A stretch of DNA of 64,000 nt from Blepharisma japonicum (lineage: Eukaryota; Ciliophora; Heterotrichea; Heterotrichida; Blepharismidae): assembly GCA_949751835.1 (NCBI GenBank), contig CATKHK010000038.1:248001-312000 (forward strand). Reading direction: 5' to 3'. Positions 1 through 64,000 of the stretch are shown here, in pieces; positions within the stretch are counted from its first letter, which is position 1; each line of letters opens with the position of its first letter. Under the pieces are notes generated by a model. It was not told the origin of the DNA. It searched no databases and saw only the letters and a list, made by a program, of their open reading frames with translations. A program made the position numbers and the translations under genes.

Positions 1-1
1 A

Positions 2-3000
2 ATACAAATTCTCAAATTTTTTACAGTTGTTTTAACTTCATTTGGATTTATTTTGGGGCATTTAATGGACAATTCATTGCTTATTAATTTTTTGGTTATT
101 ATTTTGTGACCAATATCAGCTTATTTTGTGATGCAAATTACTATAAAGCAATACACTCAAATAGATTCAATAGCTTCAAAAGATATGAAAGATATAAAAT
201 CTAAATATGAGCTAGAAAAAAGACTAAGGCACTGCATGTGCTTAAATAGTGTCGAGCATAAAAATGAGATAATCCATGCTTTTGAAAAATTTTTTAAAAA
301 AAACAGTTCCCAAAGAGATAAGCTTCAAATTATTTGAATAGCAAATTACTGCTTATTCAAACTCAAAGACGAGTCTTTAGCTAAAGTCAAATTAAGCAAA
401 ACTAAAAAAGTATCAAATTGAAACTTAGAAGCTAATTTTCAAGAATATCTATGTAATAAAAATGTCAACGAAGTATCATCAAATGAAAGTTTGCAATTTA
501 TCAATTATTTCCAACAATTAAGTCTGATAAAAAAGAAAGATTCAAAATTATGTGCTTCCTTATTAGAATTTTGAGAAGAAATAATCTCATCTAGACCAGA
601 TCTTAAAAGATTGATAAATAGGCTTGAATATATTGATAAAACCATTTCATATCTTAATAGTCAATATAGACAGCTAGTTGCTAATTTTTCTGATTCTCAA
701 GAAGGTTTAATTCTCTATAATTCATATGCGAAGGATGTTATATATGATTATGTCAAATCAAATTTTTTAGAAATTAAGTTAAAGGGACTGGAAGATTTAA
801 ATACCCCAAATATTGATTTAAAAAAATTTAGCTATATGAATGATTCTCATGGCATTTTGATAATATCAGCTGAGCAAGATAATTATGGACGAATATTATT
901 TTCAAATCCAAGAGCAGCGGAAATTATGAAGACTTCTATAAGCAACTTAGAAGAGAGCAATATAATGGAATTTATTCATTACTATTACTGCGAAAGCATT
1001 AAAAAAGAAGTTCAATGACTTATAAATTATGGCTCGAATTCTGAAATTGATTTAGGAAAGAATTTCTTTTTGGGTATTCCTGGAAAAGATTTGATAGAGT
1101 ATGCAGGAAAAGCGATAATTACTTCGATTGACAATAATCTTGTTGTTATATTAAACTTCGAATTGAAACAATTAAAGCATCAAATAGCGCTTTTGACAGA
1201 AACTGGAGAGATTTTGTGCTATTCAGAACATTTTTCTGAATTTGCTGGGAAGTACAATGAAAATTTGATAGGCTGCAATATTAAGGATTTATTTTCTGGA
1301 GTAGAGGTGCATGATTCAACATTAACTTTTCGCTTAGAAAATAAAGAAACAATTTTAGTCATGTCTTATACACAAGTTTGTAAATTAAAGGTCTTTTATG
1401 TTATGCTCATAAATGATAATGAAGAAATTCAAAGAAGAAAAAATAAAAATAGCAAAAATGATGATGAAGAAGGCGAAACAATAAATAATCATCGCCTAAA
1501 TCAAAGCGAATACAATGAGAAATCTTATCAGATCTGAGAAACTTTAGATGAAAATATTATAAATTCAGAAGTAGAACTAGTCAATCGAAATTCAAATTCA
1601 TATGAACCTTCTTCAGAAACCCTTGAAAAAACATCTTCAAGCAAATCTTCAAGTTCAAAATCTATAATTCCTAGCCAAAAAAAGGTTTTTAGAGTTCTGG
1701 CCACTTCCTCTCGGTCAATAAATATTTTGCATCTTTTCTTCATTTTATCAGTAAACCCTATATAGATTTTAGCTGTTTTAAGCACAAATGTTGTTGTTCT
1801 CATTTATGCTTTTTCATATATCAATTTTATAAAAAATATGGATTTTCCTATGGCTATGGCTCAAGCAGAATCTAGATTGCAGATTGCTGCTTATAACTCA
1901 CAATTACTCTGAGAATTGGTATTTTTAAACGACTCCAATTGGTATCAAGATTTAGTATATGCCTGAAAGGGAATGCCAGAATATATAGATGATGTAAGAG
2001 ACATTTATATGGATATTGCTACTAATTTACCAAATTGAAACTATTGCTCAAGCAAATCAATATTGACTGATAAGAGTATTCTTGTATGAGAATCTGGCAA
2101 CATGAAAAAAATAAGTCTTTTGGATGTTCTTTCTCAATCTGCTCAGTTTGTAATAATCATATAGGGATACAACATAATAAGAAAGTACAACGACTCTGAA
2201 GATTTTTCAAGCGAAGTTAAGTTTTTGAAAATGACTGGCTATGGCTACGGATATCAATATATTAATAGTTCACTATATGAAGTAATGGATTGCCAAAAAT
2301 CACTGATGCTTACATTTAAATCTGAAATGTTTGTGCTCCTCATATTGGGGATAGGAGTTCTTGGCTTATGCTTTTTTATAATGATCCCATTTTGTTATAC
2401 TGTTATAAAAATTGAGAACGATCTTTGGAATAATTTAAGAAGAAAGACATTCCGAAATTATTTAGAAATGAAATTGGCACTTATAGAAAGGCTTAGAAGC
2501 GTTCACTCTCAGCCTGAAATTTTATTTAACAATGGATCACCAAATAAGGTATTATTCAATTTCAAAAATTATTGAAAATATATATGAAGGATTTGTGTAT
2601 ATTTTTTAATCGTTATAGCGTTTTCTGTAATAAATATTACTTATCTCTATGAGAATTGCACAAATTACTTAGCTTACAGGCCTGATGTGCTTAGAGAAAT
2701 AATCCGTACTAAAATTTATATAAATACCCTTGCTATCTCAGCATCAGATATGCAAGATGGAGTTACAGGTGTTCCATTGAATAGTTTTTTTACTATACAT
2801 AATTACCCCAATATTGCAACTCTTTTCCAAAATTCTATATCATCGCTCAGAGATTCGAGATTAATATTAAGAAATCCGAAATACTCACCAATTTTATCAA
2901 GTGATTTTAAAAAAATGTATTATGAAGATGATAGTCAACCACATACGCATTATTTAGATTATGGCACATATGTAGCTGAAGAAGAACAAATAGATTATGG

Positions 3001-3277
3001 CTACATAATTGCACATTTAAACGTCACTAATGATGCATGAAGGTGATGATATTACAATATGACACTTTTTAGAGCAAATTATGATAAATATGTTGACATA
3101 ATCGATAGTTATTCTCAAAGAGTTATTGAGGATCAAGTAAGTACTATTGTTGTAGCATTTTCTATTTTTGTTGTAATTTCGATTATGATATATTTTATGC
3201 TTTATTTTGTATTTTTCAAGAACGAGAAGAAATATCTGCAGAAAATCAATTCGATGATGAATATTATGCCTGTTTAG
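2..3277 (+). CDS. TmcB-like PAS membrane protein, copy 1 (5' end missing)
   Basis: The window opens inside the N-terminal membrane bundle, so the first ~285 residues are missing and 1,081 remain, ending at TAG. Visible parts in order: the last two helices of the bundle, the helical TPR-like middle with its conserved YQLEK/YELEK-type start, two PAS-like domains (first around 840-1000 with the G-R-I-L-F-S-N-P-R-A core, second around 1185-1300 with E-T-G-E-I-L), a charged linker, then four membrane segments. Two phase-0 introns of 15 nt lie at 1751-1765 (GTAAACCCTATATAG) and 2150-2164 (GTAATAATCATATAG); removing them leaves one open frame with TGA read as Trp. It belongs with copies 2-5. TGA replaces the glycine codon of the I-L-G-P-I-S motif near 107, as in copy 4. 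Function is inferred from architecture: a multi-pass membrane sensor of unknown ligand. Confidence 0.72.
1751..1765 (+). other. 15-nt intron 1 of copy 1 (type example)
   Basis: GTAAACCCTATATAG interrupts the codons for the conserved F-I-L-S / I-L-A-V membrane helix. It contains an in-frame TAG, so splicing is required for this copy. The same position carries a 15-nt intron in all thirteen copies: 6451, 12314, 16652, 22448, 27730, 32789, 37135, 41985, 47574, 52526, 58420 and 63190 (starts). Each 15-nt intron has T at position 9 and A at position 10, consistent with a fixed branch-point adenine. Confidence 0.9.
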
Positions 3278-3846: not shown

Positions 3847-6800
3847 ATGTTTTCACTTCAAGCTGGCATAAATGAGCTCTTTTCTTCCGAAAGATTATTT
3901 GAAAGAAATTCTCTAAAAAACTCACTATTTGAAATATATAGTAAATTATACCATCGAAAAACTTTAGAAGAAAAATCTATATTCAAGTTAAAGGCTAATG
4001 AAACTATATTAGGCACACTTTGGTGCCTCCAAATGCTGAGTTTTTTATGAAATCGAAATCTTTCAATATCAGACTGATCGGAAAATATGATAATATGAGA
4101 AATTATTGGGTATTTTAGACTTGATAATATATGTTCAGAATTTGGAATTATCTACGAATGTCTTTATTTATCAATTGCAACCACTTTTACACTTGGAACC
4201 ATCGTTATTTACTTAGTGATAAATATATATTTTTCGCTAAGCATTAAAAAATTATGTCAAGTATTCAAATGAGTTTTCAATTTTTGACTTATTGCATTTT
4301 TAATGCCTTCTATAGCCTTATATTCCATTTTTTTAAAATATAGCTTTTGGCCTCAAAAATATATTTCAGAATACAAAAATGGAAGTCGCATAGAAGACTT
4401 TGAAATAAGCACTGGATTACAATTTGTGATAATTTTAGCGTTAATTATAGAATTTCCTTTGCTTTATTTATATAGTCAATTTTCAAGTGAAGTTCGGCAT
4501 TCTGAAAATAGTAAAACTATAAAAGCAAAGGCTCATTCAAAAATTGATGGTCACATAGCTATATTTACTTATTTTTTGCCAATAATTTACACAATTTTTA
4601 ATGAAAACTATATGATTTATTTTCAGTTTTTCGTTATGATTGCTTCAATAATTATAATTATTGAGTCTGAAATACTTTTACCTTATTTTTCTCTTTATTG
4701 CAATCTAATACAAATTTTCCAGCTTTTTACTGTGGCTTTAACTTCTTTTGGATTCGTTTTAGGATATTGAATGGATAATTGACTGGTTATTATTTTAATC
4801 GTAATTATTCTAGGGCCAATATCAGCAATTTTTGTAATACAGCTTACTATAAAACTGCATAGACAAATAAACATGGTGGCTTTGACAGATATGGAAGAAA
4901 TAAATTCGAAAAACGAGCTAGAAAAAAAACTAAGACATTGATTATGCTGTAATAATATCGAATATAAGGATAAGATAATCTGCATCTTTGAAAATTTTTT
5001 TATAAAAAATAATTCTCACGAAGACAAACTTTATATTATTTGAGTAGCAAATTATTGTTTATATGCTCTAAAAGATGAACCTTTAGCAAAAGTCAAATTA
5101 AGCAAAGCAAAAGCAATTTCAAGTTGAAATTTAGAAGCTGAATTCCAAGAATATCTATGCAATAAAAATATCAACGAGTCTTCATCAAATGAGAGCTTAC
5201 AATTAATTAACTATTATCAGCAATTAAATTTGCTAAAAAAGAAAGATTCAAAATTATGCGTATATTTATTGAAATTTTGGGAAGAATTAACATCAACAAA
5301 ACCTAATCTTAAAAGATTGATACATAAACTGAAATGAATCGATGAAAATATTTTATATCTGAATAATCAATATAAGCAGCTTGTAATGGAATTCTTGGAT
5401 TCTCGAGAAGGCTTAACACTTTATACTTCATATGTAAAAGATATAATTTATGATTATGAAAAATCAAATTTACTAGAAATTAAACTAAGAGGATTAAGTG
5501 GTCAAAGCACCTCAAATAATGACTTAAAAAGATTCAGCTTTTTGAATGACTCTAATGGAATTTTGATAATATCTGGCGAGATAGACAATTTCGGTAGAAT
5601 TTTATTCTCAAATCAAAGAGCTGCTGAAACTATGAAAACTTCTATTGGAAACTTAGAAGAGAGCAATATAATGGATTTTGTTCATCATTATTACTATGAT
5701 AGTCTAAAAGAAGAAATTCAATGGCTCATTCATTATGGCTCAAGCTCTGAAATTGATTTCAGCAAAGGTTTCTTCTTAAATATTTCAGGAAAATATTTAA
5801 TTGCATTTACTGGAAAAGCAATAATTACTTCAATTGGCAATAATATTGCTTTTATATTAAACTTCCAACTAAAGCAAACAAAGCGCCAATTCGCACTCTT
5901 AACAGAAACTGGAGAAATTTTAAGCTGCTCAGAATATTTTTCACATTTTATTGGAAAATCCAATGAAATTTTGATAGGCTATAATATTAAAGATTTATTC
6001 TCCGATGCAGAAATGCATGGCTCTGCATTAATTTTTCAATCAAAAAACAAAGAAACCATATTAGAGATATCGCATACACAAATAAATAAAATAAAGGTCT
6101 TTTATGCTACTCTCATGAACGATCATGAAGAAATCAAAAAATGAAAAAATAAAAATAATCATCATCACCATCATAAAATAAATGAAAAAATGCATATGCA
6201 TCGTTTAAGCATAGATGGGCATTTAAAAGGCTCTGCAAAAACTTATCAAATATCAGACGAAAAATTCTTAAATTCGGAAATAAAACTAATTGATACAAAC
6301 CCTTATGAAGCTTCAGAGGGCTTTGAAAAAAATTCTGTAAGCAAGTCATCAGACGCAAAATCTCAAGTTCTAAGTGAAAGAAAATTTTTCAGAATGCTAG
6401 AAATTTCTTCTCGATCAATAAATATTTTGCATTTTGCCTTTATTTTGTCCGTAATTCATATATAGATTATAGCTGTACTGAGCACAAATATTGTAGTTCT
6501 TTTTTATGCTTTTTCTTATATCAATTTTATAAAAAATATGGATTTTCCTATGGCTATAGCTCAAGCTGAGTCGAGACTACAAATTGCTGCTTGCACTGCG
6601 CAGCTACTATGAGTACTCACGCTTTTTGACGATCCTAGTGTGAAAAGAGATATATTAGCGGTGGAAAGTTTATTACCAGGGTATATAAATGATATAAGAG
6701 ACATTTATATGGATATTGCTACTAATTTACCAAAATGGAATTATTGTTCAAGTAAATCAATTTTAACTGATAAGAGTATTAATGTGTGAAATTTGGATGA

Positions 6801-7980
6801 AATAAAGAGAGAAAGCTTATTGGATTTGCTCTCTCAATCTGCTCAGCAAGTAAAAAATATATAGGGATATGATTTATGAAGAAAGTATCAAAACTCTGAA
6901 AATTATATGGACGAGGTCAGATTTTTGAAGATGAATGGCTATGGGGATGGATTTCAATATATTAATGCATCATTATATGAAATAATTGAATGCCAAAAGT
7001 CACTTATGCTTGATTTTAAATCAGAAATGTTTGTCCTCCTCATATTAGGAATTGGGGTCCTGGGTTTATGCCTTTGTATTATGATCCCATTTTGCTATTC
7101 TGTGGTTAAAGTTGAAAACAATTTTTGGAATAATTTAAGAAAAAAAGCATTTCAGAATTATTCTGAAATGAAGCAGACACTTTTAGAAAGATTAAAAAAT
7201 ACTCATTCTCAGCCTGAAATTCTATCAAGCAGCAAAAACCCTTCTAAGAAAATATTCAACTTCAAAAATTATTGAAAATATGTATGAAGAATTTGTGTGT
7301 ATTTTATAATTGTCACAGCATTTTCTTTAATTAATATTACTTATCTCTATGAAAATTGCACCAATTATTTAGCCTACAGGCCTGAAGTAATTCGGGAATT
7401 AATTCGTACTAAAATAGTGATAAATACCTTTATCATCGCAGCATCAGATACACAATATTATCTTATAGATTTTCCTCTGGATTATTTGTTTAATATACAT
7501 AATTATGAAAATAGCTTAGCGATTTTTGAAAAATCTGTGCTATCTCTTGCGGATTCAAGATTAACCTTAAGAAACCCGAAATATTCGCCAATTTTATCAA
7601 GTGATTTTAAAAAAACGTATTATGAAAGTGATAGCCAATTATCAACACATTATTTGGATTATGGTGCATACTCTGCAGGAGAAGAATTAATAAATGCTGG
7701 CTACCTAGTTGTGAGTACAAATGTAAATAATGATCCTACATATAGAAATTGAGTATACAATGTCACACTATTCAGAGATAATTATGATAAATATGTTGAC
7801 ATAATTGATAGTTATTCTCAAAGTGTGATTGATAATCAGATGAATATTATTGTTTCAGCATTTTCTATTTTTGTTGCGACCTCAATTTTGATATATTTTA
7901 CGATTTATTTTGTATTTTTTAAGAATGAGAAGAAATATTTACAGAAAATCAATTCAATGATGAAATTTATGCCGGTATAA
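3847..7980 (+). CDS. TmcB-like PAS membrane protein, copy 2 (complete)
   Basis: A complete copy of 1,367 residues (exons of 868, 128 and 371 codons), used here as the reference for the family. Membrane helices fall near residues 57-72, 105-130, 143-166, 191-213, 235-285 (two), 288-307 and 312-333. The conserved E-V-R-H-S ... K-A-H-S-K-I-D motif lies between helices at about 217-234. A helical TPR-like region spans 350-540 and PAS-like domains sit near 570-640 and 680-745. A charged linker runs from 755 to 850, then helices at about 856-885, 1051-1075, 1140-1160 and 1323-1347, with a ~160-residue loop before the last. Introns lie at 6451-6465 and 6850-6864. The start is the first ATG of the open frame and matches the start context of its paralogues. 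Known relatives (TmcB/TmcC) are membrane proteins of largely unknown mechanism; ligand and role here are unknown. Confidence 0.8.
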
Positions 7981-9600: not shown

Positions 9601-9603
9601 TAG

Positions 9604-9616: not shown

Positions 9617-9712
9617 CCTTTATTTTATTTATAAATAAAATAACTAAATACATTAGCTTTATTTCAAAATTGGATTAATAAAAAATACGTTTTTACTGTC
9701 ATTTTATTCATA

Positions 9713-12700
9713 ATGTTTGAACCCAAAGCTGGCTTATATAGACTTTTTTCTTCAAATCGGATAACTAAAAGAAATGCTCTAAAAAACTCACTATTTGGGG
9801 TATATAGCCAATTATATCATCAAAATACTTTAGGAGAAAGATCACTTTACAAGCTAAAATATACTGAAGCGATATTAAGCATCCTTTGATGCCTCCAAAT
9901 GCTGAGCTTTTTATGAACTCCAAATCTTTCAATAAAAAACTGAAGAGATAACATAATAATATGAAAAATCATTGGGTATTTTAGGATTGACAATATATGC
10001 TCAGAATTCAAAATAATCAATGAATGTCTATATTTATCAATTATCATTACTTTTATACTTGGATTTGGAATTATTTGTTTAGCTATCAGTGTTTATTATT
10101 CATTAAGCTTTTCAAAATTATTTGACATATTTAGATGAATTTTCAATATATGATTAATTATATTTTTGATACCTTCTATGGCTTTATATTCCATCTTTTT
10201 AAAATATAGCATTCGGCCTCAAGAGCATATTTTAGAATATCAAAATTATGATCATTCAAAAGATTTTGAAATAAGTGCTCCATTACAATTTGCGATCATT
10301 ATCGCAGCTTTAATAAATTTTCCTTTGCTTTATTTTTATACTCAATTTTCAAGCGAAATCAGGCATTCTGAAAGTAGTAAAACTATAAAAGCAAAAGCTC
10401 ATTCAAAAATTGATTTTCATATAACAATATTTACTTATTTTTTGCCAATATTTTATGCTATACTTGATGAAAATTATATGATAAGTTTTCAATTTTTTGT
10501 GATGGTTATTTCTATTATTATAATGATAGAATGTGAATTACTTTTACCATTTTTTTCTCTTTATTGCAATTTAATCCTCATTCTCAAGATTTTAACTATT
10601 GCGCTAACTTCTTTTGGGTTTTTCTTAGGGTATTTAATGGATAATTCTCTGTTTATTATTTTTCTTGAGATTATTTTGGGTCCGATATCAGCTTATTTTG
10701 TGATGCAGCTTACTATAAAGCTCCAAAATCAGATAAATGTAGCAAATTCTGCATATATGAAAGATATAAATTCTAAATATGAACTAGAGAAAGCATTAAG
10801 GTATTGATTGTGCTTAAATGATACCGAAAATAAGAATGAGATAATCCGAATCTTTGAAAAATTTTTTATACAAAATATTTCTCATAGAGATAAGCACCTA
10901 ATTATTTGAGCAGCAAATTATTGTTTATTTTCACTAAAAGATGGATCTTTAGCAAAAGTCAAGCTTAGTAAAACCAAAAATATTTCAAGCTGAAATTTAG
11001 AAGCTGAATTCCAAGAATACCTTTGCAATAAAAATATCAATGAATCTTTATCTAATGAAAGCTTACAATTAATTAATTTTTATCAGCAATTAAATCTTCT
11101 AAAACAAAAAGATTCAAAACTGTGCATTTATTTATTGAAGTTTTGGGAAGAAACAACTTCAGCTAGGCCTAATCTCAAAAAATTGACAAATAAGCTGATA
11201 TGAATTGATAAAAACATTTCATATCTTAATAATCAATATAGAAAGCTAGCAATAGAATTTTTGGATTATCGCGAGTTCTTAACACTCTATGCTTCATATG
11301 CAAGAGATATTATCTATGACTATGAAAAATCAAATTTACTAGAAATTAAACTAAGAGGATTAAACGATCCAAATATTATGAATACTGAATTTAAAAAATC
11401 CAGCTTTTTGAGTGAGTCTAATGGCATATTAATAATATCAGCTGAGCCTGACTATTTTGGTAGAATTTTGTTTTCAAATCCAAGAGCTGCTGAAATTATG
11501 AAAACTTCTGTTGAGATCTTAGAAGAGAGCAAAATAATGGATTTTATTCATTATTATTACTGTAATAACTTGAAAGTAGAAATGCAATGGCTTATTCATT
11601 ATGGCTCAAGCTCTGAAATTGATTTAAGCAAAGGCTTCTTTTTAAGTATTCCTGGAAAATATTTAATAGAATGCACAGGAAAAGCAATAATTACTTCAAT
11701 TGATAATAATCTCGTTTTTATATTAAACTTCCAACTTAGAGAAGTAAAGCATCAAACAGCAATGTTAGCAGAAACTGGAGAAATTTTATGCTGCTCAGAA
11801 TATTTTTCTGAATTTGCTGGAAAAGTCAATGAAAATTTGATAGGTCTCAACATTAAAGATTTATTCTCTGAAGCAGAAATGCATAAATCAGCACTTATCC
11901 TTCAGTTAGAGCATAAAGAAACACTTTTAGTCATATCTTGTGCTGAAGTTTTAAAATTGAAGTTTTTTTATGCTATTCTTATAAATAATCACGAAGAAGT
12001 CCAAAAGTGAAAAAGTAAAAATTGACAATATGGAAAAGAAGAAAAAGAAGAAATAAATAAGCATCGTTTAGTTTCAGAAGTATTTAATAAGGAATTTTAT
12101 AGAAACCATCAATTACCAGATGAAAAAAATATAAGTAATGAAATGATTTTAAATGATACAAATGCTTATGAAGAGTCAGAAGCCATTGAAAACAATTCTT
12201 TAAGCCAGCTATCAGATGCAAAATCTCAATTTCAGAGCCAGAAAAAGCTTTTTCAAAAGCTGGCAATCTCTTCTCGGTCAATAAATATTTTGCATTTTGC
12301 CTTCATTATATCAGTAATTCCTATTTAGATTGTGGCTGTTTTAACTACAAATATTGTGGTTCTTTTTTATGCTTTTTCATATATCGATTTTATAAAAAAT
12401 ATTGATTTTCCAATGGCCATAGCTAAAGCAGAGTCGAGATTACAAACTGCTGCTATAACTGCACAGTTATTGTGAGTGGTTACTGTGGTAAACGATACTT
12501 CTACTGCTGGTCAAGATTTAAAAGTACTTAAAAGATTATTACCAGGATATATAAATGATATAAGGGACATTTATATGGAGATTGCTTCTAATTCAACAAA
12601 GTGAAACTACTGCTCGAGTAAAAAAATTTTAAGTGATAAAAATATTAATGTATGGGATTCTGGACAAATAAAAAGAGAAAGTTTATTGGATATGCTATCT

Positions 12701-13848
12701 CAATCTGCTAAGCAAGTAAAAATTATATAGGGATATGATATGTGGAGCAAGTATAATAATGCTGAAGATTATACAAATGGGGTTAAATTTTTGATGATGA
12801 ATGGCTATGGAGATGGATTTCAATATATTAATAGCTCACTATATCAAGTAATGGAGTGCCAAAAATCATTGATGCTTGATTTTAAATCAGAAATATTTGT
12901 GCTCCTCATATTGGGAATTGGAGTCCTTGGCTTATGCTTTTGTTTGATGATTCCATTTAGCTATTCTGTAATTAAAATTGAAAATGTTTTTTGGAATAAT
13001 TTAAGAAAAAAAGCATTTCAAAATTATTCTGAAATGAAACAGTCACTTTTAGAAAGGCTCAAAAACGTTCATGATCAGTCTGAAATGATACTTAATAATA
13101 AAAGCCCGACTAAGGAAATATTCAACTTCAAAAATTATTGAAAATATATATGGAGAGTTTGCGTATATTTTATGGTCGTAATAGCGTTTTCTTTAATTAA
13201 CATTTCCTACCTCTATGAAAATTGCACAAATTATTTAGTCTACAGACCTGATGTAATTCGAGAGTTGATTAATACCAAAATAGTTATAAATACCGTTATT
13301 ATCGCAGCGTCAGATTTACAAAATGATGCTGCAGGTTTCCCTTTGAATTATTTGCTTAACATCCATAATTACGCAAATAACTTAGAAATTTTCCAAAAAT
13401 CTATATCAGCGCTCAAAGATGCAAGATTAGTATTAAGAAACCCGAAATATCTGCCAATTTTATCAAGAGATTATGAAAAGAAATATTATGAAAGCGATAA
13501 TCAACATCCATATACAAATTATCTAGATTATGGTGCATATGCTGCTGAGCAAGAATTAATAAATTCTGGATATATTATTGCAAATTTAGATGTAACTCAT
13601 GAAAGTACATATAGAGATTGAGTATACAATATTTAATTTTTAGAGATAATTATGACGAATATGTTGGTGAGATAGATAGTTATTCCCAAAGCGTTATTGA
13701 TAATCAAGTTAAAATTATTGTTGCAGCATTTTCTATTTTTGTTATGATCTCAGTTGTTATATATTTTATTATTTATTTTGTATTTTTTAAGAACGAAAAG
13801 AAATACCTACAGAAAATTAATTCGATGATGAAATTTATGCCTGCCTAA
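9713..13848 (+). CDS. TmcB-like PAS membrane protein, copy 3 (late frameshift)
   Basis: The gene is intact through the membrane bundle, TPR-like region, both PAS-like domains and most of the second membrane part, with introns at 12314-12328 and 12716-12730. Near the 3' end the family motif (Y-N-[IV]-[ST]-L-F-R-D-N-Y-D) is disrupted. Compared with copy 4, one base is missing around 13634-13637 and an in-frame TAA appears at 13634-13636. The coding length without introns (4,106 nt) is one short of a multiple of three, confirming a single net indel. The reading frame as written ends after 1,297 residues and lacks the last membrane helix; the remaining 3' codons are still well preserved to the TAA at 13848. 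It could be a young pseudogene, a truncated functional form, or a base error. No 15- or 16-nt intron explains the gap. Confidence 0.75.
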
Positions 13849-44740: not shown

Positions 44741-44952
44741 TCCAAACTTCAATTTATTCAGATACAGTTTTAAAGTTATTAAGGTACTGTGCCTATTTTT
44801 ATTTACAGCAATTTATTAGAAATAATTTTGATCAAAAATGCATTAATTATTTCCCGATAGAACTAAAATAGTCGTAAAAATAATTCATGCCAATTAAATT
44901 TTTATATTTTACTATTTAAATAATTTTATATTAAAATTTTTTTATTCCATTA
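44741..44952. other. Spacer upstream of copy 10
   Basis: 212 bp, A/T-rich. The end (TTTTTTTATTCCATTAATG) matches the region before copy 8, so the duplicated unit begins here. It would serve as promoter for copy 10 and, if real, for the minus-strand ORF. Confidence 0.4.
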
Positions 44953-47900: not shown

Positions 47901-49100
47901 ATAAAGCTATATAATTGAGAAGATGACAAAAAAGCCAATTTATTAAGCATGATTTCACAGGCAATTCAATCTGTAAAAAATATATAGGGAAATGAAATGA
48001 TTAGAAAAGGAAATAGTTCAGAAGACTACTCAAATGAAGCTTCTTTTTTGTATATTAATGGGATTGGAGACGCATTTCAGTACTGCAATCGTTCTTTATA
48101 TGAAGTAATGGACTGCCAAAAATCAATTATGCTTGACTTTAAAAAGGATATGATCTTTCTTCTTGTATTAGGGATTGGTGTACTAATTTTATGTATTTGC
48201 TGTATGATTCCTTTTTGGTATTCTAATACAAAAATTGAAAGCGATCTGTGAAATAATTTAAGAAAAAAAGTATATTACCATCCTGAGATAAAATTGGCTT
48301 TATTAAAAAGACTTAAATCTGTCCATTTTCAGCAAGAAATGCTAATTAGTGATAGAAATTTTACTTGCTCCCAATTTAATTTCAAAAATAATTGAAGACT
48401 TATATGAAGGCTTTGTTTATATTTTTCAGTTGTTACGATGTTTTCTTTGATTAATATAACTTATCTTTATGAAAAGTGCACAGATTATTTAACTTATAGG
48501 CCTGAAATAATCAAAGAAATAATTCATGAACAAATGCTGGAAAATTCTATAGGCTTATCAACTACTGAGTCTCAGCTCAGAAATTGAGGACTCTTATCAA
48601 CAAATAAAACTCCTCATGAGTATCCTCTGATGAACAGTGAAGCTGCATTTCATAAGGATATATTAAGATTTAGCCTTTCAAAAATAATTATAAGGGATCC
48701 AAAATACTTGCCTATTTTATCAGAAAATATTAAATCCAAACTTTATGAGAATCATTATGAGGTTTGATCAAAATATTTCATTTTTGGAGTATATGCTGCT
48801 GAGGAATTAGTAAGATTTGACAGCTATTTGATCATTAATTCAAACCAATTAATCGATTTATGATTAGATTGGCTTAGAAATATTGACACATTGATTGTTA
48901 ATTATAGTGAACTTACTGATGAAATTGATCAATATTCTCAAAGTGTAATTGAAGATCAAATTAAAACTATTGTAGCAGCATTTTCATTTTTTATTGTAAG
49001 TTCAATTATAATATACGTTACACAATATTTCGTGTTTTTTAGGAGAGAAAAACAGTATTTACAGAAAATAAATTCAATGATGGAAATTATTCCATCTTAA
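44953..49100 (+). pseudogene. TmcB-like PAS membrane protein, copy 10 (frameshifted)
   Basis: Near-twin of copy 8; for example about 8 differences in 84 residues around 47997-48251. At about 45538-45543, 19 nt present in copy 8 are missing inside the fourth membrane helix, apparently by loss between the similar strings CCTTTACA and CTTTGCA. The frame then reaches TAA at 45607-45609, giving only 218 residues. Everything downstream remains open and in family register to the TAA at 49100, with introns at 47574-47588 (GTAATTTTTATTCAG) and 47973-47987 (GTAAAAAATATATAG). No 15- or 16-nt intron rescues the break. It is either a recently broken gene or carries an assembly or base error at this point. 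Confidence 0.75.
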
Positions 49101-49907: not shown

Positions 49908-52900
49908 ATGCTTGACTTTGAAGCTGAAAATTTTCAATCATCTGCATCCACCCAAGGATTGTGAAAGAATAAGAAGCAAAAGATGATTAAGCAATCGATT
50001 TTTGAGTTTTATTGCCAACTTTATCATTATGAAGCTATTGAAGAAATGTCCATGTTTCGGCAAAAAATCGGAAAATCAATTGAAGATCTAGTTTGAAGCT
50101 TTCAAATAATGAGCTTATTATGAATTCCAGATCTCCCAATCAAAGATTGGAGCGATAATATGATATTATGAAAAATTATTGGATATTTTAGAATTGATAA
50201 TATATGCTCAGAATTCGGGATTATTGATGCATACTTATACTTATCAATTGTAGTCGATTTTATAATATTTTTTGGCATATTTACTCTGAGCTTTATGATT
50301 TATCATTCAGTGAATTTGCCAAGATTATTCTTAATATCATTTAAATGAATTTTCAATTTCTGGGCAAATTTGATTTTTATACCATCTATGGTATTGTATT
50401 CCATCTTTTTGAAATATAACTTTGCATCTTCAGAAAAAATATCTGAATATAAGCACAATAATGAGCCTGCAAGCTTTGAGGTAAATACTACAATACAAAT
50501 TTTAATAGTTTGTGCAATAATATTTAATTTCCCTTTGATTTTATTCAGTAAGTAAAAATAAGCTCAAATCAAAGGCTCACTCGAAAATTAATTTGCATAT
50601 AGCTATGCTATCATACTTTGCTCCAATATTTTATGTATTGTTCGATAAAGACTTCATGATTTACTATCAATTCCTTTTAATGATTATTTTACTAATTTTG
50701 ACTACAGAATCTCTAATTTATTTACCTTATTTTTCTTTCTATTGTAATCTGACACTAGTTCTTAGGCTTTTTGCTATTTGTATAGTATCTTTTGTGCTTA
50801 TTTTAGGAGATTGAATGGATAATTCGCTATTAATTTTTTTAACTGCAATGATTTTAGGGCCGTTAGCAGCCGTACTAATTTATCAGCTTGTATTAAAAGC
50901 GCAAAGAAATATAGCTATAAATCTTCCATCTAGTTTAGCTGGGATAAATTCTGTATATAAATTAGAAAAATGTCTTAGGCATTCATTAATATTAGATGAT
51001 CCTGATCTGAAAGACGATATAATTTACCTCTTCGAAATTTTCTTCACAGAAAAGTACTTGTGCCGAGATAAGCTTCAGATTATCTGGGTAACAAACTATT
51101 GTTTATTTACGCTAAAAGACGAACCTCTGTCCAGAATTAAGATAAGCAAAACTAAAAAAATTTCAGGAAATTTGGAATCTGATTTCCAAGAATATTTATG
51201 CAATCAAAAAATTAAATCTTTATCAAGCGAAAGCACGCAGTTTATTGATTACTTTCAGCAATTGCATATGATAAAAAAAAAACGATTTAAAATTATGCAT
51301 TAATTTATTAAAATTCTGAGAAGAAGTAGTTTCATCAAGACCTGATACAAGAAAACTCTCAAAAAATCTTTTGTGACTAGATGAAAAATTATTATTTTTA
51401 AATAATAAATATACCCAATTGACCACAAAATTCTTTAACTCCAAGGAGTCTTTAGATCTTTACGCTTCATATGCTAGTAATATCCTTTTTGATTGAGAAA
51501 AAGCAAATTTACTGGAAAATAAGTTGCAATTGTTTACTAAATCTGCTAAAAAGTCCAATTGCGAATTCTTTAACGACATTTATGGAATTTTTGTAGTCTC
51601 ATGCGAAGAAGAGAATTTTGGTGAAATTTTATTTTCAAACCCAAAATCCAGTGAAATTATGAAGTCTCCTTCACATAGTATTGATGGGGCCAATATAACA
51701 AACTTCATTCCTTCTTATTATTTTGAAAAAATTAATGAAGAGATACATCGAATAATTCATTTTGCATCTACGCCAAAAATTGATTTAAGCTGAGGATTTT
51801 TTTTAAATCTTCCATCTCACTATCTGATAGAATGCACTGGGAAAATTTATATAACTTCTTATGAAAATTATGTTATTTCAATATTCCTTTTTAAGCCTAA
51901 AAGAACTAAACATCAAATCGCTTTGATATCGGGAACTGGAGAAATTTGTGGCTATTCTGAAAATTTCCCTAAATTTGTGAAAAAATATAGAGGCAACTTA
52001 ATAGGATACAATCTCAAAAACTTATTCCCTGAGATAGAAGAAATTGATTGGCAATGATTTATCCCGTATAGGCTATCAGGATTTGAAATTGAGACTATTT
52101 TAGTTTTTTGCTATTACCAAATAAATGACATTAAAGTGTTTTATGCTATTTTAACAAATAACTATTATGAAATTCAAAGATTAAAACATAAAAATACGAA
52201 ATTTGAAGGGGAATATGAAGAAGAATTAGAAGAACTAGACGAAAAAGAAAACAAAACAGTTAGTCAGATCTTATTAAAGGTGCCAATTATAGAAGTAAAC
52301 AGTAATGAAATATATAAAGAGTATCCAGATATAGATGACGCTTATGCAAATTCTGAAATGAATTTAAACCAGGAACTCTCAGTTGAGTCTCCTCAAGTAA
52401 CCGATCGTGCTTTTTCTGAAGAAAAATCCCAGGTTTCAGAAAATACTCGTAGGTTGAGATTCCTTAAGCAGATAACTACATCATCAAGGTCAATAAATAT
52501 TTTGCATCTAGCAATTATTTTAGCAGTATTTTCTATATAGATTGTAGCTGTTATAGGCACAAATATTGCAGTTTTATTTTACGCTTTCTCTAATATAAAT
52601 TTTATACGAAATATGGGATTACCTTTAACTCTTGGTAAATTAGGCAAAAAATTCCAAAATATTGGCTATACTGCTCATATGATTTGGGCATTAACGCCTA
52701 TAGTAAGTCCTGATCTCAAGCCATCATTAAATACAATGTGAAATAAAATCATCAGTTTTATGGTTGATTTAAAAGGCCTGTATCTTTATACCATTCATCA
52801 TTCGAAGGGTGGAATTATTGTTCTGGAAAAGAAATTTTTACGAATAACAATATAAAGCTATGAAATTCGAATAAGAAAATAAACTTATTAGACATGATTA

Positions 52901-52917
52901 CAGAATTTATGAAAAAT

Positions 52918-52933
52918 GTAAAAAATTATTTAG
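52918..52933 (+). other. 16-nt intron 2 of copy 11
   Basis: GTAAAAAATTATTTAG lies at the intron 2 site where all other copies have 15 nt. The extra base is on the 5' side: the presumed branch adenine is at position 11, keeping its distance to the 3' splice site. Removing 16 nt keeps the downstream frame (GGA-AAT-GAA...). Confidence 0.7.
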
Positions 52934-53761
52934 GGAAATGAATTTGTTAGAAAATATAATAATTCAGAAAATTATAGTGATCAAGCCTCATTTTTAGCGG
53001 CAAATAGCTATGGCGAAACATTTGACTATTGCAATAGGTCTTGACATGAAATTATGGATTGCCAAAAAGTAATAATGTCAGAATTTAAATCCCAAATTTT
53101 TATTTTTCTTATATTTGGAATTGGGGTTCTTGCCTTATGCATTTGTCTAATGATGCCATTTTGGTATTCTATGGTTAAAATAGAAAGCAATCTTTGAAAT
53201 AATTTAAGAAAAAAAGTATATGTGCATTATTTTGAGCTAAAACAGTCATCATTGGAAAGACTAAAATATGTTCATTCACAGTCTGATATTTTACTTAGAG
53301 AAAATAATCCATCTAAGAAGCATTTTAACTTTAGAAATTATTGAAAATATATTTGAAGAATTTGTGTAGATTTTATAATTGTCATACTTTTTTCTGTTAT
53401 AAATATTACCTATCTCTACGAAAAATGCACAGACTATCTATCTTATAGACCAGAAATAATTAAAGAAATCTTACGTGCACAGTCATTTCAGAATACTTTG
53501 GCAATAGGGTCAACAAATTCTCAATTAGAGCATTGAGGATTGCCATTATATAACTATTTTCCTAATGATTATTTTTTAGTCAATAGTATATCTGCATTTC
53601 TAAATGATTGAAGAAATCTTCAACGTTCGAAATTGGTTTTAAGGAATCCTAAATATTTGCCCATTTTATCAGAACAATTTAAAACAAGCTTCTTTAAATA
53701 TGAAAATGAACCCACCTGATATTATTTTGATTTTGGAGCATATGCAGCTGAAGATATCATA

Positions 53762-53832
53762 TACTACGTTTTATTAAATTCTTACTTTTTGCAGCAAATC
53801 TTTATTTATTATAATTTTAAGATAAAAGTATA
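53762..53832. mobile_element. Candidate retained IES (71 bp, TA-bounded)
   Basis: Relative to copies 9 and 12, 71 bp interrupt the codons for E-D-I-I / N-F-D-S-Y. The insertion is preceded by TA (53760-53761) and ends in TA (53831-53832). Its ends are mirror images: TATACT on the left and, read on the opposite strand, TATACT on the right. Taking it out together with one TA rejoins ATA-AAT-TTT-GAT in family register. TA-bounded, short, AT-rich segments that are precisely removed during macronuclear development are the known form of IESs in Blepharisma and Paramecium. It could also be an ordinary small insertion. Confidence 0.6.
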
Positions 53833-54120
53833 AATTTTGATAGCTATTTGGTCACTTATTCAAATACTGACCCCAATTTGTGATTATATTGAATATTAAA
53901 TCTTGAAAAAATGACTAAAGTTTATGATGTAATTGCTGATGAATTTGATAGGCACTCACAAAGAATAATTGAAGATCAAGTTAAAATTATAACAGCAGCT
54001 TTTGTTATTTTTGCTTTGAGCTCTGCATTTATATATTTTGCACTTTATTTTCAATTTTTTAAAAAAGAAAAACAACATATTCAGAAGATTGATTCAATGC
54101 TGACAATTATTCCTTGATAA

Positions 54121-54913
54121 AAATAATAATTCTATTTTTAGAATATAGTTATAAGTAATGCTCACTTAGTTGCTTTTAAGTGGTATATTGTCATTCTATT
54201 TTAATTCTCATATTTTTTTAAAATATGAATCATCCATCTTGCAGAAAAATTAAAAAAGTATTCTCAAATAATTGAATTTGATATAAAAAGCAAATATGTT
54301 TGCTTTCCAGCATTCAGATAAAATTTATTTATGCATGATTTTTGGTTTTAATCTGCAAGAAAACTAAACGCAGCAATAGTCAGTGAATTAATTTAAATCG
54401 CCTTTTAAATAGAATTTAAAATTTATATTTTTGGGCCTCTTTCAGTTGGAATAATTTTTTTAAATAATAAAAATTTATAGGCGAAAATATGAGTATAAAC
54501 AGCAACAAAAATTTGCAAGTCAAGCACGTTGAGAAGGAAAAGAAGAGTGGTGTGTCCAGAAATGAGAGAAAAATAGAGAAAGATAGGTAAGCAAAGACTT
54601 TTAGAAAAAAACAAAAAATCCTGCTGCACTAATATTTTATTAACTAAACATCTACTATAAAATTTCTTTAACACATTAAGTTAAAAAATATATAAATTAG
54701 TTATTCCTTCTTTTAAAATTTTGTATTGCTATGAGAATTAAATCGATAATAAAAATTTACTCAAATCATTTTTTTTCAAAATATTAAATAACAGTTTTTA
54801 TAATTTATCAATAGAGAGAATAAAAGCCGATGGTTTATTCTATGAATAATTTAAACAGATCAAATGGCTAGAATTTATTTAATTAGCTGCATTTTTAATT
54901 AAATAATTTATAT
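54121..54913. other. 3' flank of copy 11 and spacer
   Basis: The first ~250 bp align loosely with the 3' flank of copy 9. A small + strand open frame (54489-54590, 33 codons, very basic, M-S-I-N-S-N-K-N-L-Q-V-K) is noted without support as a gene. The rest is AT-rich. Confidence 0.4.
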
Positions 54914-55195
54914 CTGAGCTTAATTTTGAAACTTGCAAATTCACTTCTATCACGAAGGAAACATGAAAGAATAAAAACCAAAAATCAGTTAAAAGACGAC
55001 TTTTGAGTTTTACCACCAACTTTAGCACAATGAAACTACTAGTAATGTCTCAATAAACAAGCAAAAAGCTTGCATTGCAATTGAAGGCATAGTTTTGTCA
55101 ATTCAAGTGATAAGTTCAATCTCCATATATTTCTAATTTTTTTTTAAAAGCAATATTAACAGAAAAAAAAATCAATGCTGAAAATTATTTTATAA
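54914..55195 (+). pseudogene. Relic 2: family copy with nearly all of its interior deleted
   Basis: From 54914 to about 55120 the sequence aligns with the first ~65 codons of copies 12 and 13 (GAATAAAAACCAAAAATCAG, TTTTGAGTTTTACCACCAAC and so on), with many small changes. Directly afterwards, about 55125-55195 aligns with the last ~20 codons of the same genes (AAAAGCAATATTAACAG, then TCAATGCTGAAAATTATT). About 3.9 kb of normal gene between these points is absent. It is a clear dead copy, older than copies 10 and 11 judging by its drift. Confidence 0.75.
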
Positions 55196-55797: not shown

Positions 55798-58700
55798 ATG
55801 TTTGAAATCGATGCTGAAATTAATGAATCGTCTGCTTTTAAAAAAGATTTATGGAAGAACCAGAAGCAGAGAACAATTAAGCAGTCAATTTTTGAGTTTT
55901 ACTACCAGCTTTATCACAATAAGACTGATGAAGAAATCTCCATTCTTAGGCAAAAAGTTGAAAAAGCAATAGAAGATTTAATTTGATGCTTTCAAATGAT
56001 GAGTTTACTATGAGCTCCAAGTCTTCCAATTAAGGATTGAGTTGATCATATGACATTATGAGAAATTATCGGATACTCAAGACTTGACAATATATGCTCA
56101 GAGATAGGGATCATTGATGTATACTTATACTTATCAATAGTTGTTAATTTTACAATATTTCTCAGCATTATGACTTCAATCTTGATTATCTATCGCTTTG
56201 CTAGCTTACCGGCATTAGTATTTATATTATTTAAATGAATTTTCAGTTTCTGATTGAATTTGATTTTTATACCATCTATGACATTGTATTCCATTTTTTT
56301 GAAGTATAGCTTTAATCCTTCAAGAAATGTATCTGAATATAAGAACAATAACAATCCCTCAAACTTTGAGGTAAATGCTGCATTACAAATTTCTATAATT
56401 TTTTCAATGATTATTGCTTTTCTATTGATTTTATTCCATACTGAATTTTCAGGAGAAATAAAACATGCTTTAAGTACAAATAAATTAAAATCAAAAGCAC
56501 ACTCGAAACTTGATATACATATAGCAATACTATCATACTTTTCTCCTATATTTTATGTTTTGTTTGATAAAGAATATATCATTTATTATCAATGCTTATT
56601 GATGATAATTTTAATAATTTTGATAACAGAAACTATAATATTTTTACCATATTTTTCAAGTTATTGCAACTTAGCGCTAATTCTTCGGCTTTTTACTGTT
56701 TCTGTAGTATCCTTTGGATTTATTTTAGGGTATTGGATGGATAATTCAGTATTAATTATTTTAATAGCTATACTTTTAGGGCCTATAGCAGCAGTTTTTA
56801 TTTATCAGTTTACGCAAAAATGTCAAAGATGTTTAATCGTAGATCTTCCAAAAGGCTTAGATGGAATAAATTCTGTATATAAACTAGAAAAATCTCTTAG
56901 GAATTCATTACTCTTAGAAGATTCTGAAAATAAAGACCAAATAATTTACTTATTTGAAATATTCTTTATAGAAAAATACTTATGTCGAGATAAGTTTCAA
57001 ATTCTCTGGGTAACAAACTATTGTTTATTTACATTGCAAGATGAACCTTTATCAAAAATCAAATTAAGACAAGCAAAAAATATTCCAGGAAATTTAGAAT
57101 CTGATTTTCAAGAATATTTATGTTATAAACATATTGAATCTTTAAGAAGTGAAAGCACAAAATATATCGACTACTTTCAGCAATTGCATATAATCAAAAA
57201 GAAAGATTTAAAATTATGTGTCAACCTATTGAAATTTTGAGAAGAATTAATTACATCAAAGCCAGATATTAAAAAACTGTCAAAAGAACTTCTATGGATA
57301 GAAGAAAAATTGTTATTTTTGAATAATAAATATATTGAATTCACAGCAAGATATTTTGATTCTAAAGAATCTTTAGATCTCTATGCTTCATATGCAAAGG
57401 ATATCCTTTTTGACTGAGAAAAATCAAATTTATTAAAAAATAAGTCACGATCATTTGGTAGAAGTACTATAAACTCCTATTCACGAAATTTTGAATTTTT
57501 TAATGATCACAACGGAATTTTTATAATTTCATGTGAAGAAGGAAACTTTGGTGAAATTCTTTTTTCAAACCCAAAATCTAGCGAAATTATGAAGTGTCAT
57601 TCATACAATATTAATGGAGCCAGTATAACAAACTTTATTCCGACTTACTACTGTGAAAAACTATATGAAGAAATTCACAGGACTATTCATTTTGCTTCCT
57701 GCTCAGAAATAGACTTAAATGAACGATTCTTTTTAATCCTTCCCTCACATTTTCTAATAGAGTGCTCTGGGAAAATTTTAATAACCTCACACGATAATTG
57801 TCTCATTTCTATTTTAATTTTTAAACCAAAAATAGCTAAACATCAAGTTGCCTTAATATCAGAAACCGGAGAAATTTGCAGCTATTCTGAAAATTTTTCA
57901 AAATTTACTAAAAATTATAGAAGCAATTTAGCAGGATATAACCTTAAAAATTTATTTCCTGAAATACCAGATTTTGCTTGGCAATGATTTATCCCTTATA
58001 GGCTATCAGGCTTTGAAACCGAAACTATTTTGGTTTTATGCTATTATCACGTCAATAAAATGAAAGTATTTTATGCTGTAATAACAAATGAATCTGATGA
58101 AATTCAAAGATGGAAAAATAAAAATTCGTTATTTGAAAAGGAAAATGAGGGTGAAAAATTTTATTTGGCAAGCCAAATATCATTAAACGTTCCAAATACT
58201 GAACGTAATAGTGTCATATATAATGAAGATTCAGAAATTAAAGAAATTTCTGTTCATTCAGAAATGAATTTAAATAAATCAAGCGAAACTGCAGAATTAA
58301 CTTATCGCTCTGAAGAAAAATCTCAAATTTCGGAATATACTTATCATAGAACGTTTATTCATCAAATAACTACATCTTCAAGGTCTATTAATATTTTGCA
58401 TTTATCTATTACCTTAGCAGTATTTTTTATATAGATTATAGCTGTTTTAGGTGCAAATATCGCTGTGCTGCTTTACGCATTCTCTAATATTAATTTTATA
58501 CGAAATATGGATCTTCCTTTAACACTTGGAAGGTTAGGCAAAAAATTGCAAAATGTAGCCTACACTCCTCATTTACTTTGGGCGCTTTCACCAGGAGCAA
58601 GCTCTGATACTCAGCAGGTGCTAAAAGTTGTATGGAATAAAATCATCACTTATAATGCTGATTTAAAAGATATGTATCTTAATATTACTTCTAATTTAGA

Positions 58701-59952
58701 AGAGTGGAATTATTGCTCAGGAAAAGAAATTTTTATGGGAAAAAATATAAAGTTATGGAATTCTAATAAGAAAATCAATTTATTGGATATGATTTCAGAA
58801 TTTATCCAAACTGTAAAAAATATTCAGGGAAATGAGTTTGTGAGAAAATATAATAATTCAGAAGATTATAATGCAGAAGCTTCCTTTTTAATAGCTAATG
58901 GATATGGAGAAGCATTTGAATACTGTAATAATTCTTTATATGAAGTTTTGGATTGCCAAAAAGTAATTATGTCTGATTTTAAATCAAAAATGTTTATCTT
59001 TCTTATATTAGGAATTGGTGTTCTTGCATTTTGTTTTTTCTTTATGATACCATTTTGGTATTCTACTGTAAAAATTGAAAGCGATCTTTGAAATAATTTA
59101 AGGAAAAAAGCATATGAGCATCATTTTGAACTAAAGGAGTCCTTAGTGGAGAGATTAAAGCGAGTTCATTCTCAGCCTGATATTTTACTTAGTAATGAAA
59201 CTCCTTCAAAAAAATATTTTAATTTTAGAAACTACTGAAAATATATATGAAGATTTGTCTTATACTTTATAGTTGTCTCAATGTTTTCTATTATAAATAT
59301 CACCTATCTATATGAAAAATGCACAAATTATTTATTTTATAGACCAGAAATATTAAAAGAAATCATACGCGGACAAATTTTACAAAATTCTATAGCAATA
59401 TGAGCGACAAATTCTCAATTTGAGCATTGGGGAATTCCATTGATAAATAATCTTCCTAATAATTACCCTTTAATGAACAGTTGATCTGCATTTCAAAACG
59501 ACCTTGCAAAGCTTGAACGTTCAAAATTGGTTTTAAGAGATCCCAAATATTCACCTATTTTATCAGAGATATTTAAAAAGAGTTTCTTTGAATATGAAAA
59601 CGAATCAAATCATTATTATTTTGATTATGGGGCATATGCTGCTGAGGATATCATAAAATTCGACAGCTATTGAATTACTTATTCAAATATGCTTGCCGAA
59701 TTCTGATTAATTTGAGCCCTGAATATTGAGATTTTGACTATTAATTACGGTGATCTTGCTGATGAGATTGATAGCTATTCTCAAGGTGTTATAGATGATC
59801 AAGTCACAGTTATAGGGGCAGCTTTTGCAGTTTTTGCTATATGTTCGATAATTATATATTTTTCATTATATTTTATATTTTTTAGGAAAGAAAAGCAATA
59901 CTTGCAAAAGATCAATTCAATGCTGAAAATTATTCCGTGACAAATATGATAA
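55798..59952 (+). CDS. TmcB-like PAS membrane protein, copy 12 (complete)
   Basis: 1,374 residues with introns at 58420-58434 (GTATTTTTTATATAG) and 58813-58827 (GTAAAAAATATTCAG, stop-free). It belongs with copies 9, 11 and 13. N-terminus M-F-E-I-D-A-E-I-N-E-S-S; bundle motif S-G-E-I-K-H-A-L-S-T-N, where the usual R-H-S is K-H-A, a notable change in the best conserved motif of the family. PAS-like cores are I-L-F-S-N-P-K-S-S-E-I-M and S-E-T-G-E-I. The C-terminus is extended by three residues (I-I-P-W-Q-I-W, both Trp from TGA) before TAA. The three exons close exactly in phase 0. Confidence 0.8.
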
Positions 59953-60558: not shown

Positions 60559-63500
60559 ATGCTTGAGTTTGAAGTTGAAATAGATCAATTATCTGATTCC
60601 AGTAAAAGATTATGAAAAACTAAAAAGCAAAAAACAATCAAGCAATCGATTTTCGAGCTTTATAACCAACTTTATCACAATAAATCAGATGAAGAAATTT
60701 CTATGTTAAGACAAAAGGTTAGCAAAGCAATTGAAGATCTAATTTGATGCTTTCAAATAATGAGTTTATTATGATTTCCACATCTTCCAATTAAAGACTG
60801 GAACGATAACATGATATTATGAGAAATTATTGGGTATTTTAGAATTGACAATATATGTTCAGAGCTAGGGATTATTGATATATATTTATACTTGTCAATT
60901 GTAGTTAATTTTATAATATTTTCAGGTATATTGATTTTAGTTTTTATGATTTATCGTTCGGTGAGTTTACCGAGATTAATCTTTGTCCTATTAAAGTGAA
61001 TTTTTAATTTTTGGATTAATGCGATTTTTATTCCATCTATGGTGCTGTTCTCTGTCATTTTGAAATATAATTTTGCATCCCTAAAGAATATATCTGAGTA
61101 CATTAGCAATAAATCTGAGATCTTTGAGGTAAATATTGCTTTACAAATTTCTATAATTTTGGCGATAATTATTACTTTTCTCTTGATTTTATTCCACGCT
61201 GAATTTTCAGGTGAAATCAGACATTCTGTGAGTAAAAAAATACTGAAATCAAAGGCTCACTCAAAAATTGACTTCCAAATATCAATTTTTGCATATATTT
61301 CTCCAATTATGTATGTATTGAGTGTAAAAGATTATATAATTTATTACCAATGCTTTTTGATGGTTAGCTCAATAATTATGATGGCAGAAATTATAATCTT
61401 TCTGCCATATTTTTCAGCCTATTGCAATTTGACACTAATTTTTCGATTTTTTGCTATTTCTGTAGTATCTTTTGGGTTTATTATAGGAAATTGAATAGAT
61501 AATTCACTATTAATTATTTTGATAGCGATTATCTTAGGACCTTTAGCGTCTGTGTTCATTTATCAATATATTTTAAAACTTCAGATGAAAATTATAACGA
61601 ATCTTCCAGCTAGCTTATCGGAAATAAATTCTGTATATAAATTAGAAAAATGTCTTAGGCACTCTCTAGTATGAGATGACACTGAGAATAAAGATCAAAT
61701 AATATACCTCTTTGAAATTTTCTTTATAGAAAAATACTTATGCCGAGATAAGCTTCAAGTTCTCTGGGTAGCAAATTACTGCTTATTCACACTGCAAGAC
61801 GAGCCTCTATCAAAAATCAAGCTAAGCAAAACAAAAAACATTTCAGGAAATTTAGAATCTGATTTTCAAGAATATTTATGTCAAAAGAAGATTGAAGAAT
61901 CCTCATGAAGCGAGAGCACACAATTTATTGATTATTTTCAGCAATTACATATGATAAAAAAGAAAGATTTAAAATTATGCGTAAACTTATTGAGATTCTG
62001 AGAAGAACTTATTTCACAGAGCCCTGATGTTAAAAAACTGTCAAAAAATCTTATGTGACTTGAAGAAAAACTGGCATTTTTAAATAATAAATATAGCCAG
62101 CTAACCACAAAGTTTTTTAACTCCAAAGAATCACTAGATCTCTACGCTTCATATGCAAAGGATATTCTTTATGATTGAGAAAAATCAAATTTTTTAGAAA
62201 ATAAGTCAAGGTCATTCAGCAGAAATGCTATAAACACCTATTCACGAAATTTTGAATTTTTTAATGATATTAATGGAATATTTATAATTTCATGCGAAGA
62301 AGAAAATTTTGGTGAAATTCTTTTCTCAAACCCAAAAGCAAGTGAAATTATGAACTCTTCTTCCTATAACATTGATGGGACCAATATAACAAATTTTATT
62401 CCACCTTATTATTGTGAAAAATTAAACGAAGAAATCTGTAGAATTATTCATTTCGCCTCAAACTCAGAAATAGATCTAACTGAAGGATTTTTTCTAAATC
62501 TCCCCTCCCATTTTATAATAGAATGCTCTGGAAAAGTTTTAATGACCTCACACGAAAACCATCTTATTTCAATATTACTTTTTAAGCCTAAAAAATCTAA
62601 ACATCAGGTCGCATCAATGTCTGAAACTGGCGAAATTTGCAGCTTCTCAGAACATTTTACTAAATTTCTCAAAAATTCTAGCAGAAGTTTAACAGGATTA
62701 AATATCAAAAATTTATTTCCTGAAATAGAAGAATTTGGCTGGCAATGATTTACCCCTTATAGACTATCTGGATTTGAAGCTGAAACTATTTTAGTTTTAA
62801 ATTATTATCAAGTCAATAAAATGAAAGTCTTTTACGCTGTTTTAACAAATGATTATGATGAAATTCAAAGATGGAAAAATAAAAATTCGCCAATTGAAAA
62901 TGAAGAAGAAAAATTTATTTTGACAAGCCAATTATCGTTAAAAGCATCAAGCACAGAAGGAAATAGTAAAATATTGCATAAAGAATATACAGAAATTGAA
63001 GATATTTACGCTAATTCTGAGATGAATTTAAATCAAGTAAGCTCAAATGAATCTCCAATGGTAACTGACCATGCTTATTCTGAAGAAAAATCACAAGTTT
63101 CGGAAAATACTCATCAAAGGAGATTCCTTAGACAGATAACTACTTCTGCTAGATCAATGAATATTTTGCATATAGCCATTATTTTTGCAGTATTTTTTAT
63201 ATAGATTATAGCAGTTTTAGGCACAAATATCGCTGTGCTATTTTACGCCTTCACTAATATTAATTTTATTAGAAATATGGACTTGCCTTTAACTCTTGGA
63301 AAATTAGGCAAAAAAATGCAAAATGTTGCGTATACATCCCACTTGCTTTGGGCACTTTCGCCAGGAGCAAGTTCTGATACTGAGCAGGCATTAAGGGTAA
63401 CGTGAAGTAAAATTATTGTTTTTATGACTGAATTAAAAGGCCTGTATCTTAATATTACTTCTCATTTAGAAGATTGAAGTTATTGCTCGGGAAGAGAAAT

Positions 63501-64000
63501 TTTTATGAATGAAAATATAAAACTATGGAATTCTCATAAGAAAAAAATAAATCTATTGGATATGATATCAGAGTTTGTTCAAACCGTAAGAGATATTCAG
63601 GGAAATGAGCTTGTAAGAAAATATAATAATTCAGAAGATTATAATGCAGAAGCCTCGTTTTTAGTGGCCAATGGATATGGAGAAGCATTTGAGTATTGCA
63701 ATAGTTCTTTATACGAGGTTATGGATTGCCAAAAAATAATTATGTCTGATTTTAAATCAGAAATGTTTATTCTTCTTATATTGGGAATTGGTGTGCTTGC
63801 ATTATGCATTAGCATTATGATACCGTTTTGGTATTCTACTGTAAAAATCGAAAGCAATCTTTGAAATAATTTAAGAAAAAAAGTATATGAACATTATTTT
63901 GAGCTGAAACAGTCCTTAGTGGAGAGATTAAAGTGCGTTCATTTTCAGCCTGAAATATTGCTTAACGATGGAAATCTATCAAAAAGGCAATTTAATTTTA
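60559..64000 (+). CDS. TmcB-like PAS membrane protein, copy 13 (3' end missing)
   Basis: 1,137 codons are visible before the window ends, about 83% of the expected protein. All domains up to the helix with G-I-G-V-L-A-L-C-I-S-I-M-I-P-F (63779-63826) and the F-R/Q-F-N-F region after it are present; the large loop and last helix lie outside. Introns at 63190-63204 (GTATTTTTTATATAG) and 63586-63600 (GTAAGAGATATTCAG, stop-free). Start M-L-E-F-E-V-E-I-D-Q-L-S; bundle motif S-G-E-I-R-H-S-V-S-K-K. Closest to copy 12. No break is seen, so the array continues with an apparently working gene past the right edge. Confidence 0.75.

Follow-up and report, generated by a model that had tools for sequence, protein, structure and literature searches.

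The DNA analysed here, a window of 64,000 nucleotides from Blepharisma japonicum (contig C38, positions 248001-312000), was found to lie within a tandem array of genes encoding TmcB-type membrane proteins, and we interpret these proteins, in large part from predicted structures and with a probability of roughly 0.5, as receptors that may form an expanded chemosensory repertoire. The array spans 183 kb of this 415,726-base contig, in an assembly of 45,185,585 bases and 224 contigs, and direct reading of C38:185001-385000 revealed 30 family units from 191,632 to 374,165. Four minus-strand units are followed by a 25-kb stretch with other genes and then by 26 units, 25 of which are on the plus strand; across the contig, 26 of the 30 copies are open, with a complete frame after removal of two short introns. 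The right end of C38 carries 12 TGTTAGGG telomere units, this repeat being a permutation of CCCTAACA. The left end (C38:1-1000) resembles what we take to be a minus-strand 18S rRNA gene, and the contig may presumably break at an rDNA locus.

Family units make up about 82% of the window and, as had been predicted, belong to a single family that is on the plus strand throughout and overruns both ends. The original prediction counted 13 copies and two relics; both relics (U16f and U17f) were recovered, but the total is 13 units (U07 to U19) with the relics included, not 15, comprising ten open copies, U09f with one 1-nt frameshift, and the two clearly broken units. The window start truncates U07 (1-3277), the frame of which opens about 0.9 kb earlier at C38:247102; next come U08 (3847-7980), U09f (9713-13848), U10 (14051-18184), U11 (19853-23983), U12 (25087-29256), whose second intron ends in CAG such that the frame reads through, and U13 (30164-34318; introns at 32789-32803 and 33188-33202), the reference for residue numbering. 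U14 (34501-38661) and U15 (39336-43508) are the first and second genes of a duplicated two-gene block, the broken copies of which are U16f (44953-49100), with a 19-nt deletion and 90.9% DNA identity to U14, and U17f (49908-54120), with 88.5% DNA identity to U15 over most of its length. U17f has five gaps whose lengths are not divisible by three; one lies within intron 2 and resembles a 16-nt intron, and therefore four are regarded as frame-breaking. A plus-strand scrap of the N-terminal region (54892-55094; 32% identity to U18) precedes U18 (55798-59952) and U19 (60559-64000), the latter being cut by the window end and stopping about 0.7 kb beyond it, near C38:312713. The frameshift of U09f is a 1-nt gap versus a relative, near the 3' end of an otherwise open copy, and a sequencing error is also possible.

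The view that the window holds no other convincing gene needs one reservation, in that a minus-strand acidic ORF of 182 aa between U15 and U16f (44267-44812) is the best non-family candidate there and a possible extra gene; it had no Pfam match at E<=1. Elsewhere on C38, three tandem ORFs of 467-468 aa ahead of the plus-strand array (C38:228676-235909) constitute another local tandem family, the first of them matching Sugar_tr (6.8e-84). A 294-aa ORF between U23 and U24 (C38:336704-337585), outside the window, begins with a part resembling what we take to be the rolling-circle Rep of CRESS-DNA viruses, and is a possible endogenous viral insertion within the array.

Protein identity among the 26 open C38 copies was only 31 to 84%, and a duplicated-assembly artefact was therefore ruled out; expressed as differences, the copies vary by 16-69% in protein, the DNA divergence of the youngest blocks being about 9-12%. 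The predicted reading of UGA as tryptophan was upheld, with 429 TGA and 216 TGG codons and no internal stops in the 26 spliced open C38 copies, and with Trp accounting for 38.3% of the residues aligned opposite TGA, versus 1.8% overall. The shared intron sites were likewise confirmed as two phase-0 positions occupied by 15-nt introns of the form GTA...AG. Introns of the array genes measure 15 or 16 nt; intron 2 of U02m (C38:196451-200621) and U04m (C38:207506-211661) is 16 nt instead of 15, shifting the frame there, and U17f is apparently alike. The open genes encode about 1,370-1,420 residues. The same genetic code, intron sizes and telomere are given for Blepharisma stoltei, along with a 41-Mb somatic genome, in the account of Singh et al. 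2023 (PMC9942806).

In the open copies, about seven or eight hydrophobic helices form the N-terminal block and are followed by a TPR_TmcB region, a PAS-fold region and a variable linker, after which four more membrane helices bracket two domains that are predicted to be all-helical. Membership of the TmcB type was supported by the TPR_TmcB profile (PF25474), the mark of TmcB/TmcC-type proteins, which include the ‘tiny macrocysts’ proteins of Dictyostelium; the N-parts of all 13 window units matched it at E<=0.1 (best 2e-12), and the PAS region comes after it, as in that type. When the same profile was searched against the genome, 11 of the 13 window units matched, ten over the curated cut-off and U12 below it, with U15 and U17f absent. 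The PAS assignment is carried by fold more than by Pfam, the matches to PAS_9 (5 of 13) and PAS (4 of 13 window N-parts, E<=0.1) being weak, and the Foldseek and VIA-align rows for the N-terminal model being PAS proteins. According to this model the region probably comprises two PAS domains, the second being less sure (model blocks of 41-69 pLDDT). Hydropathy analysis agreed with the predicted multi-pass topology, displaying 11-15 peaks in four array copies. A non-arrayed TmcB/PAS_9 gene on contig C5 is laid out in the same order, from helices through TPR_TmcB, PAS and linker to four late helices, with 12 hydropathy peaks of which the last four are arranged as in the array copies; unlike these, it encodes 1,709 residues, whereas the array copies score lower against the PAS profiles and occur in large tandem arrays.

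For the C-terminal part, Foldseek returned weak matches, transporters and TTYH2 among them, and a second look with VIA-align ranked bacterial sensor domains first. In their predicted fold, with helices that continue through the membrane, the C-terminal helical domains may resemble the bacterial extracytoplasmic sensors NasR (NIT), McpN (PilJ-type), NarQ and TorS. The array proteins differ from these sensors in having no sequence profile match and two such domains per chain, and in carrying PAS/TPR on the N-terminal side, in place of the kinase or methyl-accepting signalling part. Searches at E<=1 across the genome gave no match for NIT (PF08376; the control matched in one of 14 genomes, not over the cut-off) or PilJ (PF13675), and two sub-cut-off matches for 4HB_MCP_1 (PF12729), on C7 and C42, neither at a counted family locus; membership of these three families by sequence was rejected on this basis, with which a shared fold is still compatible. 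Sequence searches for PDB relatives yielded two rows for exon 3, neither credible (best E 1.1); the N part gave nothing at E<=1. The animal NIT-domain guanylate cyclases, as presented in PMC7400543, are a case in which a eukaryotic membrane protein is proposed to sense through a NasR-like double helical bundle, and the array proteins may be comparable to these in that respect, but have no cyclase match, just as NIT itself was without a genome match.

We infer that the two C-terminal helical domains lie on the outer face. The charge bias of the four late helices is consistent with this for the first and the last helix, contrary for the second and weak for the third, and sequons showed no clear enrichment within the two domains. 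Four cysteines conserved among the 26 open C38 copies, namely Cys978 and Cys1055 (26/26), Cys1177 (24/26) and Cys1045 (20/26), would suit extracellular disulphides.

A genome search with the TPR_TmcB profile gave 146 matches at E<=0.001, of which 140 were over the cut-off, and merging these by position with the matches of an exon-3 query (at least 105) and an N-part query (at least 52) produced at least 171 related loci, broken copies and non-arrayed genes counted. This figure is a lower bound, since candidates were only partly scored and the direct reading of C38 gives 30 units where the merge gives 28. The merged loci are distributed over C58 (31), C38 (28), C57 (19), C50 (13), C56 (11), C40 (9), C20 (7) and smaller sets, with 34 having no neighbour inside 15 kb, and further arrays besides that of C38 were present on C58, C57, C50, C56 and C40. 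The proposed expansion is thus evident within this genome. Two additional queries stand outside the 171 loci, one with a C58 N-part (51 of 195 candidates scored) and one with the C-part of a non-arrayed gene, which gave weak matches at additional sites on C75 and C15. A pair of very similar TmcB/PAS-type genes was also observed on opposite strands of C54 (126561-129893 and 223489-226821), about 97 kb apart.

The copies arose through local and two-gene block duplication. Copies farther apart on the contig tended to be more divergent in protein (Spearman 0.532, a value reached in 0 of 9999 permutations), and for 13 of 26 open copies the closest relative was the adjacent open one (0 of 9999 permutations); besides the block U14-U15 and its copy U16f-U17f, there are alternating block pairs, U01/U03 and U02/U04. 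The four sequence groups expected in the window were recovered as U07-U11, U12-U13, U14/U16f and U15/U17f-U19, with the U12-U13 fork supported at 93/88, below the tool's star. A maximum-likelihood tree was built from 38 N-parts, one or two of them from each array other than that of C38. All but one of the 26 open C38 copies grouped together there at 85/81 with one C57 copy as sister, and the exception, U30, the last C38 copy, joined another C57 copy at 91/72. Synonymous divergence of exon 3 was below that of the N part in U06/U07 (0.50 vs 1.03) and U09f/U10 (0.12 vs 0.35), which might reflect 3'-end gene conversion; not all neighbours show this difference.

Whole-copy omega (pairwise Nei-Gojobori) ranged from 0.18 to 0.36 across the 11 pairs examined, and the copies are therefore maintained, most of them by purifying selection at an omega of about 0.2-0.35. 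Values of 0.20-0.35 per exon for U16f and U09f against their relatives suggest that these were lost recently. The copies had been expected to differ most in loops and linker, which held for the linker (mean divergence 0.75) and to a small degree for the ectodomains (each at 0.60, versus 0.44-0.57 elsewhere; 25 copies); column entropy peaked in the linker and distally in each of the outer domains. Among 325 pairs screened, 32 had dS<1.2, and in 26 of these ectodomain dN exceeded cytosolic dN, mostly by a small factor. In the youngest open pair, U20/U21 (dS 0.21), the rate of change in the outer domains was 3.74-fold that in the cytosolic part, dS being equal in both (Fisher p 8e-7, for a pair picked after looking), whilst the ratio in the other 24 pairs listed was 0.53 to 1.50. 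General diversifying selection on the outer domains is unsupported, and strong acceleration, seen in this one pair, does not establish diversifying cell recognition.

If the array encodes chemosensory receptors, the two helical domains would face outward and bind ligands in the manner of bacterial four-helix sensor domains, and binding would shift the long membrane-crossing helices. The PAS/TPR region would read this shift and pass the signal to a partner protein, such indirect action being proposed because no catalytic output domain was recognised in the region. Through its many copies of the gene, the cell would have a broad repertoire for chemosensing. It is likeness of fold that points to the ligand-binding step, and we infer the later ones.

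The original prediction had named a sensory or a cell-recognition repertoire; the sensor-like C-part fold speaks for the former, and the latter has no specific support. Variable outer domains that recognise gamones or partner cells in conjugation, as a mating or self/non-self repertoire, might account for the distal entropy peaks and the acceleration in U20/U21, and the name ‘tiny macrocysts’, given in Dictyostelium, refers to a sexual stage. We nonetheless consider this unlikely, given that whole outer domains diverge little beyond other parts, that most pairs show no acceleration of them, and that two gamones, to which mating in Blepharisma is ascribed in PMC10892320, do not call for 171 receptors. 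Equally improbable is a channel, transporter or membrane scaffold in which the C-terminal helical domains are structural and PAS/TPR regulates transport; the roughly eight N-terminal hydrophobic helices could suit such a role and the weak Foldseek matches include transporters and TTYH2, yet the top-ranked VIA-align matches of the C part were bacterial sensor domains, and no transporter or channel family of Pfam was matched by the units tested (E<=1) or the 13 window N-parts (E<=0.1). Membrane-protein genes standing head to tail with broken copies interspersed also recall antigenic variation, in which one or a few copies of a surface repertoire are expressed at once. Such mutually exclusive expression is highly improbable here, as the large cytosolic TPR/PAS part is kept in every open copy, 26 of the 30 C38 copies are open, and the low omega throughout fits signalling proteins that are each in use.

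The chemosensory reading also invites comparison with animal odorant receptors, which form large tandem birth-and-death arrays; in C38, too, related copies lie side by side with some broken ones among them, although the proteins are unrelated to odorant receptors. A bolder and rather doubtful proposal is that about 170 receptors, each coupling two outward helical sensors like those of bacterial chemoreceptors to a tandem PAS/TPR reader, would be a TmcB-derived ciliate counterpart of bacterial chemoreceptor or animal odorant-receptor sets. The family was not described in the titles and abstract beginnings returned by an open-licence PMC full-text search, preprints being outside its scope, and to our knowledge few receptors are known for chemical sensing by ciliates. 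At least 171 loci with sensor-like anatomy provide a concrete candidate set for tests of expression, location and ligands, in a heterotrich genus for which expression data across development have been published. Should the chemosensory reading be true, the TmcB family, which is represented in Pfam by a single domain, would gain a likely role as a membrane sensor.
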